A DNA stretch of 64,000 bases, from contig JAAWCJ010000029.1 in the NCBI GenBank assembly GCA_022793195.1, positions 1 to 64,000 on the forward strand, read 5' to 3'. The position numbers were made by a program, and so were the translations under genes. The notes below the pieces were generated by a model. That model did not search any database. It worked only from the letters and a program-made list of their open reading frames with translations, and was not told the DNA's origin. Within the stretch, counting starts at the first letter, position 1; the number at the start of each line of letters is the position of its first letter. Positions 1,743-7,362 of this stretch are shown here, piece by piece. This stretch comes from Lachnospiraceae bacterium. Its GTDB lineage: Bacteria; Bacillota; Clostridia; Lachnospirales; Lachnospiraceae.

Positions 1743-4226
1743 TCAGTCTCCATCCTCAAGGGGAGCAGTGGAGATCCACATGGCGGGACGGACGCCCTGC
1801 CAAACAAATTCGTCGCTACTGTCCACAATACTTCCATCGACTTTTACATATGGAGCTTCCGTATTATCCCCTGCTAAACGCAGCCACCACGGCTTGCTTG
1901 TACCGGTGCCAATCTCATTGCAGCTGCGGTCAAGATTATCCGGAAAAAAGGAAGAAACCTCATCTTTGGAAAGCAAAAATAGTTTATCGTTGGTGCTCCT
2001 TCCATTCCCCACATTCACCTCTGCCTCTAAAATTCGTCCTTGTTCAAATTCATTAAACGCCTTCCCATACAGCTTCTGATTCAGGTCTTGGCGAATCAAA
2101 CAACCTTCCCAACTGATTATTGTGTTATATGCTGAGCAGTAAGGCATATCCCACAAACTGTACTTGCTGACCACTAAAATCCTATCTTCCTCTTTCGCGA
2201 GAACCTTCCATTCAACATTTTCCTGTCTATAATCTGCAGACGGGTTATAGACACCAAAATAAAAGGAATCTCCGACTGATACTGCCTGTAAAATCTGCAC
2301 TAATTTTTCCTGGCTGTCTTTGTAGTCACTTGATTCCCGAAAGGCAGTAAAAGCTTCGTAATCGTTGCCCGCTTCCAGCAATTCGATTCCCGTTTGGTAC
2401 TTCCTAACATACCGCCGGCAAAGCGATGCTTTCTCCGGACTGCTTTTATAATCTCCCAGTCCCTCAAAAATCTCAACAGCTTCATCGTAATTTCCCGCAT
2501 CCATATAATCCAATGCTTTTTGATACTGGCCTGACAATTTTTTCAGATTTATTATATTCCATACAACAAAAGCAGCAACACAAGCAAAAACAACAGTCGC
2601 AACAATTATAAAAATTTTTCGATCCCGTCTGCGCCTTTTTTCCGCCTGCCGCTTTTTCTCCGCCTCCTCTTCCTCTTTCATTCTTTTGATCTCTTCAATC
2701 TTTTCCCGACAGAGGGCCGCCTGTTCGTCCGCATCCTTCCAGCCGGGGATCAACTTAAACTGTTCAAGGGAATCCTCATAAGAACGGAGAAACGTCCCCT
2801 CCATCCTGCCTTTTGCAGAGCGGTAAATAAGGTCGTTTCTTTTCTCCGTACACTCTTTCCCCAGGATATCCGCATCCCTGTAACCCGGGATTTCAGAAAA
2901 AAGCCCGGCAGCTTTCCCGTAAGTATCTGCCGATACTGCTTTTTCCATCACAGCGCAGGCTTCCCCATAAACCGCTTCCTGCCGCCTTGTCTCGTTGCGC
3001 TCAACGATATGGGCAACGTAGCCCTTCAGGGCTCCCGCCGTCTTTTCATCCCCAAAGCGCACGGCTTTTTGGTAATTCCTTTTGTCATCAAAAGGGAAAT
3101 CCAGGTCTCTTAGTTCTTCCTCCCTGTGGACATGCAGCTCCGCCATCAGTTTGCCGAGGTATGCCTTTGCGTTTTCCGGCTCCTGATCCAGCACCCTTTC
3201 ACAGTATTGGTCCGCGTCCACCCACTCCCCGTCCTCCAGGAACATAAACACCCTCTTAAGAAGGGCGGCCACACCGGCACCTCCTCTGCCGTCCGTTCCG
3301 GAAACAGGTTCCTTCTCCCCTTTTGGACCGTCGGAAGCCAGGATCTTCTTTATGCCGCGGATCAGGTCCTGCATAAAGCCCAGCTCCGACATATCCTGCG
3401 CCTGGAGATGGGAAAATTCCTCCGGCAGGTCATAAGGATCCATGTCCCTGTAAGCAGGAATCAGGGTCTTTTTCCTGTCCTTTTTGCTTAAAGCCAGATA
3501 ACGGCTCCATTCATTCTTCACCCAGGCGGCGTTATAGTACTCCTGCTTCGTCCCCAGGACCACCATGACGCGCGCACTGTTTAACGCGGCAAATATGTAA
3601 GGCTCGTAAGCCGTCCCCAGCTTGTCCTCCAGGGTAATCCTGGAGAAGAACACCTTAAAGCCCTCCTCGGTCAAGTGGTGGTAGATGTCGTTGGCCAGGA
3701 CGCTGTCGGGCGTCCGTTTCCCATACCGGTCTGTCTCTTTATAGCAGAGAAAAACGTCAAAGGGCTCTTCTTTTTCGGAAATTTCCAGAATCCCCTTCTG
3801 AATCTCATCGATGGCTTTCGCCTCTTCCTCGTAGACTGCCCGCTGCGCACCGTCGGCGTACTGGAGAGCAGACTTATAATCCCCGTCCGCAAAGACAGAT
3901 GTGAACTGGGTACGGTTTACCGTGGGAACCCGCCTGTGTGTCTCCTCATCCTCCACATATTCAATGCCGTAGCGGCATAAAACCAGCGACCAGTAGGCTT
4001 CCGCGTCTTCCTGGTCTTCATTCAGGATCTGCTCGTAAATTCCCATGGCCTTGTCGTACTCATTGTTCCGGCGGAAATGGTTGGCGCGGTCATAGAGGTT
4101 CCTGCGCCTGTCATTGTCCAGCTTGGGAATGGTCTGCTTTGTCCCGCAGTACTCACAGACTGCCACTGTTTCCTTTTCCTGTAATTCCAGGGTGCCTCCG
4201 CACATTTTGCACTTAAAAACAGACAT
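1743..4226 (-). CDS. Zinc-ribbon / TIR domain / TPR-like membrane-anchored protein
   Basis: 827 aa; CKMCGG..CEYCG ribbon, TIR-like core (FDVFLCYKETD...VFFSRITLEDKLG...ARVMVVLGTKQEYYNAAWVKNEWSRYLAL), later TM helix (IFIIVATVVFACVAAFVVWNII) and repeats. Confidence 0.85.
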   Translation of the reverse strand: MSVFKCKMCGGTLELQEKETVAVCEYCGTKQTIPKLDNDRRRNLYDRANHFRRNNEYDKAMGIYEQILNEDQEDAEAYWSLVLCRYGIEYVEDEETHRRVPTVNRTQFTSVFADGDYKSALQYADGAQRAVYEEEAKAIDEIQKGILEISEKEEPFDVFLCYKETDRYGKRTPDSVLANDIYHHLTEEGFKVFFSRITLEDKLGTAYEPYIFAALNSARVMVVLGTKQEYYNAAWVKNEWSRYLALSKKDRKKTLIPAYRDMDPYDLPEEFSHLQAQDMSELGFMQDLIRGIKKILASDGPKGEKEPVSGTDGRGGAGVAALLKRVFMFLEDGEWVDADQYCERVLDQEPENAKAYLGKLMAELHVHREEELRDLDFPFDDKRNYQKAVRFGDEKTAGALKGYVAHIVERNETRRQEAVYGEACAVMEKAVSADTYGKAAGLFSEIPGYRDADILGKECTEKRNDLIYRSAKGRMEGTFLRSYEDSLEQFKLIPGWKDADEQAALCREKIEEIKRMKEEEEAEKKRQAEKRRRRDRKIFIIVATVVFACVAAFVVWNIINLKKLSGQYQKALDYMDAGNYDEAVEIFEGLGDYKSSPEKASLCRRYVRKYQTGIELLEAGNDYEAFTAFRESSDYKDSQEKLVQILQAVSVGDSFYFGVYNPSADYRQENVEWKVLAKEEDRILVVSKYSLWDMPYCSAYNTIISWEGCLIRQDLNQKLYGKAFNEFEQGRILEAEVNVGNGRSTNDKLFLLSKDEVSSFFPDNLDRSCNEIGTGTSKPWWLRLAGDNTEAPYVKVDGSIVDSSDEFVWQGVRPAMWISTAPLEDGD

Positions 4227-4256
4227 TCTTTATCCCCCCGTATAAAATTTTGTTTT

Positions 4257-5159
4257 TTAACCCATATAATGATTTTTACGTTCCAGCGCTTCAAGTGAAA
4301 AATCAAGGATTTTCTCTTTTCTCTCAGTGAGCATCAGCCAATAAAATTTCTTCTGCAGCTCGCTTATAAATGGTGTAGACTTTATCAATTCCCGGATGCT
4401 CTCCATATCAATTCGTGGGACAATACGCATTAAAGCATGATTACAGTCTTTATTTTGCAGCGATGAGATAAAATCAAAATATTTAATTCTTTTACCATTT
4501 ATCATAATAGCAGAAGTCGGAATCTCATAAATCCGGTAATTTCTCGCTTTTTCATCTAAAAAGACGGACTCCATAATATTTTCGTCTGCCTGGGGATAAA
4601 GGCTGCTTCCGCAGTCATATACCGGAGCCAGTTCCATCGCGTCTGTGACGGTATTATAAAGAAATCCCCAGTTCCCATTATGTCTGTCCCAGTTTCCAAT
4701 CAGGGCGTCTATGATAAACATATCCCAAAAACGTTCTGAAAGAATCCGGCTGTCGATCACCGCCTGCTCTTCAAATGTATTCTGTATATCGGAAAGCTCA
4801 GTTCCATAACCACTCCTCTCAGAATCAATCATCTGGTTTTTCAGAGAACCAAAATCCTGTAAAACAACGCCCGGCCTGGTAAAATCTCTGCACGCAGCCA
4901 CAATCTTTTCTTTTCCTTTTACCGTAAAAGCCCCCAACAAAGTTTTCTGTACAGGAACCCCTGCAATTTCATAAATCTGGCAGCCGAGATATTCTGAAAA
5001 ACAACTGTTGCTGTAACTCATATCTTTGTTTTTTGTGGGCGCGGGAGGGAATTTTAACATATACTGTTCTCCCTCGTATATCACAGAAATCTTATTTCCA
5101 TTTGCCCCTGCGTACATTTTATTTCTCTTTTGAAGCCCTGTAAAATCAATGGGCGGCAT
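4257..5159 (-). CDS. HipA-like / CtkA-type kinase domain protein
   Basis: 300 aa; FWDMFIIDALIGNWDRHNGNWGFLYN...APVYDCGSSLYP HipA-like kinase motifs. Confidence 0.8.
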   Translation of the reverse strand: MPPIDFTGLQKRNKMYAGANGNKISVIYEGEQYMLKFPPAPTKNKDMSYSNSCFSEYLGCQIYEIAGVPVQKTLLGAFTVKGKEKIVAACRDFTRPGVVLQDFGSLKNQMIDSERSGYGTELSDIQNTFEEQAVIDSRILSERFWDMFIIDALIGNWDRHNGNWGFLYNTVTDAMELAPVYDCGSSLYPQADENIMESVFLDEKARNYRIYEIPTSAIMINGKRIKYFDFISSLQNKDCNHALMRIVPRIDMESIRELIKSTPFISELQKKFYWLMLTERKEKILDFSLEALERKNHYMG

Positions 5160-5163
5160 ACTC

Positions 5164-5454
5164 TCACACCCTTTCCATCCTCAAATACTTTTCCCGAAGA
5201 TGCCATGCCTGTTCTGTACTGATGATCAGGTTCACTTCAGCATTGTTGATATCGCTTTGAAGGCGGCAATAATCACAGTCCCAGTAAAGGTATGTCTCCC
5301 CGCCATCAATTTTTTCCCATGCCTCTTTCATGGCCGCAATAGATTCTTTAAGAAAATCGGGAAGTCCATGCTCCAGATATCCTTTATCCTGCGGCAATCC
5401 TGTTTCATTGTCGTAAGGTGATAAAGAAGATTTCTCCTTCTCTTTCATTACCAT
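5164..5454 (-). CDS. Small hypothetical protein paired with the HipA-like kinase
   Basis: MVMKEKEKSSLSPYDNETGLPQDKGYLEHGLPDFLKESIAAMKEAWEKIDGG...; start chosen for AAAGGGAGAA upstream of ATG; ends 4 nt before the kinase start. Confidence 0.7.
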   Translation of the reverse strand: MVMKEKEKSSLSPYDNETGLPQDKGYLEHGLPDFLKESIAAMKEAWEKIDGGETYLYWDCDYCRLQSDINNAEVNLIISTEQAWHLREKYLRMERV

Positions 5455-5462
5455 TTCTCCCT

Positions 5463-6143
5463 TTATTTTAGCATCCTGCATTTCTGGTTCCGGCTATGGA
5501 GAATCGCCGCCGTCTCTTTTGCCAGCGTTTTTGCTTCCGCGGTATTCTCCTTTTCCACTGTCCGGGAAAACAGGGCGAATTTCTCCGCGATCTCCGATTC
5601 TGTTCCAGCCAGGGAAACATCCGACATGGGGTCGGAATACCGCGCTGCCTCGTAAACCTCTTTGCAGGCTGCCCTGATTTCTTCTGAACCGGCTTTCTCC
5701 ACAAGGCTTTTTGCCTCAGCCGTCAGGTTTTTTATAAAAAAAGTCTGGGCCCTGGTCGTTTCGTCCACCTGTCCCGCAAAATCCGCCTCCGCCTTTGCCC
5801 CTGCCGAAGCGGCAGCCGTAAAGGCAAATACACCTACACAGAAGGAAACCCCCGCCCACACCGGGAATCCCGGAACCACCATCAGCAAGATTCCGCATAA
5901 GACGGTGGCAGCCAGCCCCATATAACTGACCAAAATCATCGGGATACCGTAAAACAGCTTCTTCCTGTTTGTTCCCCTCAAGGCCAGAAAAGCGCAAAGG
6001 TACTGCCCGATAAAGGCCAGCGTGACCAGCCAGTAGGCCGCCTTGCCGCCTGTCCCGACAGGCGGTATGGTAAAATAAATAATCTGGAAGGCCAGAAAAA
6101 ACACAGCCCATATAAAATCATACACTCTGATTCTTTTATTCAT
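5463..6143 (-). CDS. Multi-TM hypothetical protein
   Basis: MNKRIRVYDFIWAVFFLAFQIIYFTIPP...; hydrophobic segments; start overlaps stop of the upstream SPFH gene. Confidence 0.75.
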   Translation of the reverse strand: MNKRIRVYDFIWAVFFLAFQIIYFTIPPVGTGGKAAYWLVTLAFIGQYLCAFLALRGTNRKKLFYGIPMILVSYMGLAATVLCGILLMVVPGFPVWAGVSFCVGVFAFTAAASAGAKAEADFAGQVDETTRAQTFFIKNLTAEAKSLVEKAGSEEIRAACKEVYEAARYSDPMSDVSLAGTESEIAEKFALFSRTVEKENTAEAKTLAKETAAILHSRNQKCRMLK

Positions 6144-7362
6144 AGCTTTCCCCCCTCTTTGTCCCGCATTTCGGACAGAATTTTCCGGGACGTTCAAACA
6201 CGTATCCGCAGTTTTGGCATTTGGATTCCTCTTTGGGAACCGGCATCCCGCACTCATCGCAGAAAGCCGCGCCGAAAGAAAGCTCCGACCCGCAGTTTTC
6301 GCAAAATCCCCCTGTTTTTGCAGGCTGTAGGGCGGACTGCGAAGAATCCTCCTGTTGAGGCTGTAACGGCTGCCGGGTGGCGGTATCCACTGCCCCTCCG
6401 ATAGCGCCACTCACCAGGCCTCCCACGGCTCCCCCGACGCCCGCCATGGTGCCAAAGCCGACCCCCATGTTGGTAAACTGGCCCACCGATTCATTCCGGG
6501 CCACCTCTTCGGCCACATCAAATCCTCTCTCCTGCTGGTAAGTATAACCTTCCTGGGCACGTTTTGCCGCCATAGCCTGGGACTCAATAACCGTCTTCTG
6601 AGCCTGTGTCTGCGCTTCGATCACCGCGGTCTGCTGGCGCAGCTTCGCCTCCGCGATGTCGGCATACTGGCGGAAATAAAGCTCCTTGAATTTTTCATAC
6701 TGGCGTTCTCCGTCGGGCCTGACCACGTTTGTCACAAAAAACCGCTCCAGGGATATGCCGTAGTCTGCGAAATCAGGGATCAGCAGCCTGTGGATATTTT
6801 CAGAAAAAGATGTCAGGTGCTCGTCCAACTCGAAAATATTGATGGAATCCGCCTTCATCACCTGCGCGATATAAGTCTTAACCCGCGTCATCAGAAAAGA
6901 GCGGAAGAACCCAATCAGTTTCTCCTGGGAAAGAAGGCTCTCCGTGCCCACCAGCTTTAGCAGCAGCTTTCTTCCGTCCTCCGCCCGGAGGCTCATCTCG
7001 CCGGAGGCCCCGACGGAAATGGGAAACCCGTAGGTCGGCTCCATATACTGTACTTTACTGTCCGTCCCCCATTTCACGGACATCTGCTCCGCCTTGTTGA
7101 TAAAATACACTTCGCAGTGAAAGGGGGAAACACCGCCTGTTGCCAGATTCAGAAGCTTTCCCAGAATCGGAATATTCTGCGTCTCAAGGGTATATCTCCC
7201 CGGCCCGAAAAGATCCAGCGCCTGGCCGTTCATAAAGAAAACGGCCTCCTGGCTCTCATGGACGATCAGCTGGGTCAGGCTGTTGAAATCTTCACTGGGG
7301 TGTTTCCAGATAAACGTGCTGTTATCCCCCTCATATTTGATAATCTCCGTAATTTTTGCCAT
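6136..7362 (-). CDS. SPFH domain protein with C-terminal double zinc ribbon
   Basis: SPFH-like body, C-terminus FCENCGSELSFGAAFCDECG...CQNCGYVFERPGKFCPKCGTKRG; strong RBS GGGGGGAGG before ATG at 7362. Confidence 0.85.
   Translation of the reverse strand: MAKITEIIKYEGDNSTFIWKHPSEDFNSLTQLIVHESQEAVFFMNGQALDLFGPGRYTLETQNIPILGKLLNLATGGVSPFHCEVYFINKAEQMSVKWGTDSKVQYMEPTYGFPISVGASGEMSLRAEDGRKLLLKLVGTESLLSQEKLIGFFRSFLMTRVKTYIAQVMKADSINIFELDEHLTSFSENIHRLLIPDFADYGISLERFFVTNVVRPDGERQYEKFKELYFRQYADIAEAKLRQQTAVIEAQTQAQKTVIESQAMAAKRAQEGYTYQQERGFDVAEEVARNESVGQFTNMGVGFGTMAGVGGAVGGLVSGAIGGAVDTATRQPLQPQQEDSSQSALQPAKTGGFCENCGSELSFGAAFCDECGMPVPKEESKCQNCGYVFERPGKFCPKCGTKRGESYE

Follow-up and report, generated by a model that had tools for sequence, protein, structure and literature searches.

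What is the five-gene cluster at positions 1743-7362 of a Lachnospiraceae contig: one functional unit, or a combination of separable parts? The cluster lies on the minus strand of the stretch of DNA analysed here (the window), the first 64 kb of contig C55 (JAAWCJ010000029.1) of a draft genome of 2.69 Mb that is 90% complete. An earlier reading of the letters alone (the original prediction) had proposed that an SPFH protein, a membrane protein, a small protein, a HipA/CtkA-like kinase and a TIR protein form a single cassette, possibly acting in immunity or stress. We are led to a different division. The locus appears, with fair probability, to be a three-gene, membrane-anchored sensor-effector conflict system of Clostridia (the triad of SPFH, membrane and TIR genes), in which a mobile pair of small-protein and CtkA-type kinase genes occupies a cargo slot. 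Several features legible in the DNA point this way, namely operon conservation, the catalytic glutamate, the specificity of the slot, the diversity of its cargo, the swapped C-termini, the diversity-generating retroelements (DGRs) of relatives and the separateness of the kinase pair.

Loci for comparison were chosen by similarity to the window TIR protein, using a simple caller of open reading frames (ORFs), among relatives that are mostly draft metagenome-assembled genomes of Lachnospiraceae and other Clostridia, the majority of gut or rumen origin. The scan yielded at least 496 TIR loci from Clostridia and neighbouring Bacillota, 79 of which were kept; in a sample of the family, the N-terminus of the TIR protein was present in 21 of 299 genomes. 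An operon of SPFH, membrane and TIR genes with one SPFH gene was found at 54 loci in Clostridia and related Bacillota, the SPFH and membrane genes being adjacent 55 times and the membrane and TIR genes 52 times. Among 99 non-duplicate TIR loci, 63 have an SPFH gene on the same strand, 58 a membrane gene and 56 both. The order is SPFH-membrane-TIR in genomes G007, G010 and G066, TIR-SPFH-membrane in G023, and three TIR genes followed by the SPFH gene in G040. Neighbourhood conservation, by which the original prediction was to be judged, thus holds for the SPFH, membrane and TIR genes and fails for the kinase and the small gene, which occupy a variable slot and have been deleted from G007; relatives carry the triad without them, and the cassette of five as a single conserved unit is rejected.

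Within the window genus, the triad is accessory, since only three of 11 genomes carry it (G000, G007 and G010); G004 has a TIR gene without SPFH. A comparison of the site behind feoB gave no clean empty site, the downstream genes varying across the genus. At one further locus (L099:4614-7478), an SPFH gene and a membrane-type gene of 201 codons are followed by a gene for a zinc-ribbon/transmembrane protein without TIR domain, which suggests a broader family of SPFH scaffolds with other third partners.

In the window, all five ORFs are present and closely spaced, transcribed in the order SPFH protein, four-transmembrane (4-TM) protein, 94-residue protein, kinase and TIR protein, and because homologues of all five exist elsewhere they are real far beyond chance. 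The first triad gene (6136-7362, minus strand as for all features of the cluster) encodes a 408-residue protein with a Band_7_1 domain (Pfam, 1.2e-40) and a C-terminal double zinc ribbon (DZR, 1.2e-8). The second (5463-6143) encodes a 226-residue protein, with transmembrane segments predicted at residues 5-23, 37-55, 72-90 and 93-111 and a cytosolic helical tail; a Pfam search returned no family for it, and its homologues mostly have three or four such segments. Its ATG at 6143 overlaps the SPFH gene by 8 nt. The original prediction had described this close-packed layout, the overlapping start and the SPFH protein with its double zinc ribbon correctly; it had also named the kinase and the zinc ribbon of the TIR protein, both borne out below. 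The repeats that it saw in the latter protein exist as well and are TPRs, the C-terminus, which it left unnamed, being a DUF6273 domain.

The third triad gene (1743-4226) encodes a receptor-like protein of 827 residues, arranged as zinc ribbon, TPR, TIR, TPR, one transmembrane helix, TPR and DUF6273. The zinc ribbon (4146-4211; C6, C9, C24 and C27, in CxxC motifs at residues 6 and 24) has all four cysteines invariant among 31 aligned sequences. The TIR domain (residues 158-281, 3384-3755; TIR_2, 2.8e-12) carries the motif W-V-K-N-E with Glu239 (codon 3510-3512), the catalytic residue on which the original prediction depended; it is invariant in the same alignment, and W[VIL][KR]NE is present in 120 of 126 TIR proteins. 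We take Glu239 to be the catalytic glutamate of NAD+-cleaving TIR domains, by comparison with SARM1. The transmembrane helix (residues 538-556, 2559-2615; identified by hydropathy and charge balance) is directly preceded by RRRRDRK, and the charge bias in homologues predicts an N-in/C-out orientation for these single-helix proteins, which would place the C-type-lectin-like DUF6273 domain (residues 682-819, 1770-2183; 2.7e-13) outside the cell. A model of the full-length protein matched only TPR structures in the Protein Data Bank (PDB), which is uninformative for the TIR and DUF6273 domains, and PADLOC returned no match for this protein.

The predicted outer part is also the part that varies. 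Across 32 aligned TIR proteins, conservation is about 0.8 over residues 1-300 and 0.1-0.4 past residue 600. The N-termini of tandem TIR copies are 85-98% identical, while their C-terminal 220 residues often lack detectable similarity: tips are swapped in arrays at L142 (97% versus none), L144 (89-93% versus none), L206 and L238, and the copies at L188 are 94% identical N-terminally versus 28% over 75 residues at the C-terminus; other tandem arrays retain related tips. The C-termini comprise DUF6273, Lectin_C, RCC1 repeats or a terminal transmembrane helix alone. In gut phages, DGRs target DUF6273, for which modelling gives a C-type-lectin fold (PMC10743442, PMC11792537).

In some relatives the tip is itself a DGR target. 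Locus L167 (334-4758) holds a complete DGR, with a variable region (VR) at the 3' end of a TIR+DUF6273 gene (2676-2801), an Avd-like ORF (2958-3347), a 126-bp template region (TR; 3383-3508) and a reverse transcriptase (RT) bearing GLPLGNQTSQ...YMDD from about 3529. VR and TR differ at 21 positions, every one a template adenine (p about 1e-12), and 20 of these differences affect the first or second position of a codon. The VR of a second TIR gene (L185, 12541-12667) is matched by a template elsewhere in its genome, on a different contig (L285:3-1504), with 16 of 17 differences at A; an intact RT follows that template, and the Avd-like gene is apparently split across the ends of the two contigs. 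A decayed DGR is found at L196, and at L170 a DGR scar lies behind a TIR gene, the start of Avd running directly into the end of the RT. Hypermutation of this kind looks like what would be expected of a changeable immune receptor. Elsewhere, DGR-like TR/VR pairs lie beside RTs in genomes with a TIR module (L286, L288-L291), and an RT with a 118-bp TR/VR-like pair (L287, G676:C145) lies in the genome of L222, the TIR gene of which runs off its contig.

Extra genes were found at only one place in the triad: 23 of 52 membrane-TIR junctions contain them versus none of 55 SPFH-membrane junctions (Fisher p 2e-9). This slot is also where the window small-protein/kinase pair resides. Between core genes, 46 genes were found; they form 38 groups, most with a single member, and many belong to toxin or defence families. 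Pfam recognizes RiboL-PSP-HEPN (6e-14; L186 and L169), a stand-alone, ThsB-like TIR (2e-19; L165), DUF4365 (5e-13; L168), SIR2_2 (1e-9; SIR2/AbiH-like genes in L142, L144, L184 and L187, and by motif in L186), ParE (2e-8; L193), DUF2971 (2e-9; L144) and, all in L146, RES (5e-15), FRG (3e-12) and a defence RT (3e-25) of type UG26 (1e-139). Further HEPN cargo was called by eye from the RN-xxx-H motif in L143, L239, L174, L189 and L235; the strict motif occurs in 7 of 42 cargo proteins versus none of 60 flanking proteins, the latter set having twice the residues. Genes for two-transmembrane proteins occupy the slot in L146 and L149, and L206 has a small membrane protein resembling them. The genes flanking the modules are largely metabolic or for transport, with some integrases.

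Two of these loci are unusual in themselves. L239, a contig classed as viral in IMG/VR, carries an SPFH-membrane-HEPN-TIR module and may represent the border of a prophage or a piece of bacterial DNA that was wrongly classified. L146 (4936-19313) holds an array of TIR genes, one of them represented by its two ends only, interleaved with the FRG, UG26, RES and two-transmembrane genes; a DGR at its RT was considered and rejected, as the RT is UG26 and no TR/VR repeat is present.

The occupants of the slot in the window are a 94-residue protein (5164-5448) and a Ser/Thr kinase of 300 residues (4257-5159). The kinase matches CtkA (PDB 3akj) at 3.7e-90 over residues 1-288 and HipA_C at 7e-13. It has the HipA_C fold, the Gly-loop, the catalytic DRHxxN and the DxG metal motif (GANGNK at 18, YMLKF at 33, NWDRHNGNW at 156 with Asp158, VYDCGSS at 180 with Asp182), and is the only one of the five proteins with PADLOC matches, the best being the candidate family PDC-M03A (5e-27). 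The small protein is read from its own Shine-Dalgarno sequence, a longer version from 5481 being less likely, and is predicted to form four helices (AF2 pLDDT 87.6). It has no Pfam family, and no PDB fold matched it at E below 1; neither a HipB-type helix-turn-helix (HTH) nor a HipS-like fold was detected by Pfam, structure model or PDB fold search, and the latter fold was rejected on that ground. The gene lies a few bases 5' of CtkA-like kinase genes in several distant genomes and on two virus-classed contigs (62% identity), and the pair recurs in an unannotated phage clone and a Campylobacter fetus plasmid, sometimes adjoining Fic toxin genes. The small protein is accordingly a candidate partner, antitoxin or regulator, for CtkA-type kinases. 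CtkA-like kinase genes were also seen on plasmids of Campylobacter fetus and Megamonas (L240, L241), beside or near Fic genes.

The pair is best described as a separate mobile unit. In the sister genome G007, the gap between membrane and TIR genes reads ATG AAA GCC TTG GAA CGA AAA AAT ATT CCA TAG, a mini-ORF (M-K-A-L-E-R-K-N-I-P-stop) that begins as the small gene does and finishes as the kinase gene does, with A-L-E-R-K-N common to the two. Because the first codons of one are thus fused to the last codons of the other, we conclude that the pair was deleted in G007, leaving a scar; this scar also led us to reject the idea that the pair is newly inserted in the window genome alone. An orphan small gene stands directly behind the TIR gene of G004 (L092), and a distant HipA-type kinase with a HipA_C domain directly precedes the TIR gene in L185.

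A working model can be proposed from these elements. The SPFH and 4-TM proteins would gather TIR proteins in a membrane patch via their zinc-ribbon/TPR segments, as YdjI is held by YdjG/YdjH in Bacillus subtilis. The variable outer domain, here the lectin-like DUF6273, would bind a foreign or damage-derived ligand, and this binding would cluster the TIR domains in the cytosol, which may then cleave NAD+ through Glu239 and lead to cell arrest or death. The slot gene would supply a second effector, here a putatively toxic kinase that the 94-residue protein may restrain. What goes beyond past co-inheritance, retained catalytic residues and a diversified outer domain, that is, the topology, ligand binding, NAD+ cleavage and any immune outcome, we infer. 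The role of such a membrane sensor-effector system is probably immune, and the spectrum of cargo together with DGR targeting in relatives makes a conflict or immune role more likely than the original prediction could know. Phage defence in particular is somewhat less probable than a conflict role in general, and a functional link between kinase and TIR system seems evenly balanced. It is also possible, if rather doubtful, that the locus is a bacterial counterpart of Toll-like receptors, a transmembrane TIR protein on an SPFH scaffold, with a lectin-like tip swapped between tandem copies and DGR-hypermutated in some lineages, and an exchangeable second toxin gene.

Several observations weigh against the conflict-system reading. 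No SPFH gene occurs on the surveyed DNA at 36 of the 99 TIR loci, many of them cut by contig ends, and at a few, L172 and L205 among them, about 10 kb upstream of the TIR gene is free of SPFH genes, from which it follows that the TIR protein can stand without a scaffold nearby; draft assembly may account for scaffold absence, as for the split DGRs. The distance matrices of the triad proteins do correlate (Mantel r 0.39-0.62), in favour of the triad, but these correlations also mirror shared species history, coevolution and common descent being unseparated. The TIR gene of the window has no second or template copy in its own 90% complete genome and no Avd match, and was rejected as a DGR target. 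A portion of the cargo is ordinary (short-chain dehydrogenases in L188 and L193, Lgt in L150, a zinc-ribbon protein) or belongs to no recognized family. Cargo was named partly by eye, several HEPN calls being the RN-xxx-H motif only, and the PADLOC contrast (96 families matched for 42 cargo proteins versus 9 for 45 flanking proteins) is inflated by a single RT, the source of many matches. Finally, the kinase was seen in the slot once, apart from one scar (G007), one orphan small gene (G004) and the case of L185.

The kinase could be a passenger. It is a substantial possibility, just short of an even one, that the pair came to lie in the operon as a selfish unit resembling toxin-antitoxin pairs and is functionally unrelated to the TIR system; this bears on the kinase alone and leaves room for the triad to be a conflict system. 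Plasmids, virus-classed contigs and other genomes carry the pair by itself, the kinase is missing from the slot of the other surveyed triads, and G007 lost the pair while keeping the triad. However, the specificity of the slot (23/52 versus 0/55), its many toxin and defence occupants, the tight spacing of the pair within the operon and the second HipA-type kinase directly before the TIR gene in L185 argue for more than a chance landing.

A role in envelope stress, with an SPFH/4-TM platform sensing membrane or wall damage and a TIR protein tuning the response, has a precedent in the PspA-YdjGHI system of B. subtilis, where the SPFH protein YdjI, like YdjL, ends in a zinc ribbon and is held at the membrane by YdjG/YdjH (PMC8581546, PMC11237479). 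The window operon is similar in its Band_7_1 protein with C-terminal zinc ribbons and its 4-TM membrane partner, and DUF6273 could bind cell-wall glycans. It differs in that the 4-TM protein has no Pfam family and a TIR receptor is present instead; PspA and TPM-domain families were not found by Pfam among the five window genes, the triads of relatives not having been scanned gene by gene for either. Moreover, the catalytic residues of the TIR domain hardly vary, many of the genes in the slot belong to toxin or defence families, and a fixed self-signal would need neither a swapped nor a hypermutated outer domain, all of which makes this explanation unlikely. Still further from the evidence is an action on animal-host signalling, as for some pathogen TIR proteins and Helicobacter pylori CtkA. 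The similarity to CtkA and the gut or rumen origin of most relatives would fit, but neither a secretion signal nor a gene for a secretion system is found among the five, other gut bacteria have CtkA homologues in which the C-terminal secretion signal of the H. pylori protein is reported to be missing or divergent (PMC5536186), and the TIR domain is predicted to be cytosolic behind a transmembrane helix, with zinc ribbon and TPRs. We consider host-directed effectors highly improbable.

How far is a membrane-anchored conflict system of this kind already described? Both DGR-diversified conflict sensors, one of them with TIR, and TIR defence systems are already known. The former carry DGR-hypermutated C-type-lectin domains linked to effectors including TIR (Kaur 2020, PMC7159879; Dore 2024, PMC10907252), and one Thiohalocapsa DGR target combines CHAT and TIR domains (PMC10907252). 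A lectin-fold domain under DGR control and the link to TIR are common to these sensors and to the relatives studied here. However, the known sensors involve STAND/NACHT, vWA-MoxR or VMAP parts and come from multicellular proteobacteria and cyanobacteria, whereas here, in Clostridia, the TIR domain belongs to a single-helix zinc-ribbon/TPR protein encoded next to SPFH and 4-TM proteins, and the window member has no DGR. In the gut-phage receptor-binding proteins with DUF6273 and the tentaclins, which share the lectin-fold DUF6273, the C-terminal variable region and the DGR (PMC10743442, PMC11792537), DUF6273 is part of a virion protein, whereas the bacterial TIR membrane protein studied here is predicted to bear it as its outer tip.

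Thoeris, SpbK, TIR-STING and SPARTA resemble the module in their TIR domain with catalytic glutamate, and some loci carry SIR2-like proteins and one slot a ThsB-like TIR. In the present system, by contrast, TIR is fused to a zinc ribbon, TPRs, a transmembrane helix and a lectin-like domain; no ThsA-like gene was found among the five, and the NCBIfam Thoeris model scored 20 bits against a cut-off of 220. HipBA, HipBST and CtkA share the HipA_C fold with the window kinase, CtkA being its closest solved relative, and have a small partner gene just 5'; unlike in HipBA and HipBST, the partner here is helical, with no HTH or HipS-like fold detected. A phylogeny of Hip proteins leaves CtkA unmentioned (PMC8262856). 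The original prediction could name no described system of this composition, and our searches agree: PADLOC matched the five proteins to no described defence system, and the combination of SPFH, 4-TM and transmembrane TIR proteins was not found in the literature, mostly open-access papers.

An apparently undescribed TIR module would thus be recurrent among Clostridia of gut and rumen, with at least 496 stretches that encode TIR, and would tie TIR signalling to SPFH membrane scaffolds. Its repeatedly used slot might allow new toxin or defence families to be found by position alone, and the predicted sensing tip, hypermutated in some of its TIR proteins, makes changeable bacterial receptors a directly testable idea. 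In addition, a candidate partner emerges for CtkA-type kinases, the best-known of which is investigated as an effector of Helicobacter rather than as half of a bacterial two-gene unit.

Two other genes lie beside the module in the window: a lone Phd/YefM-like antitoxin gene on the plus strand (968-1222), with a score below the Pfam cut-off, and a DUF1016 N-terminal (YhcG-type) gene on the minus strand (2-490), truncated by the start of the contig.

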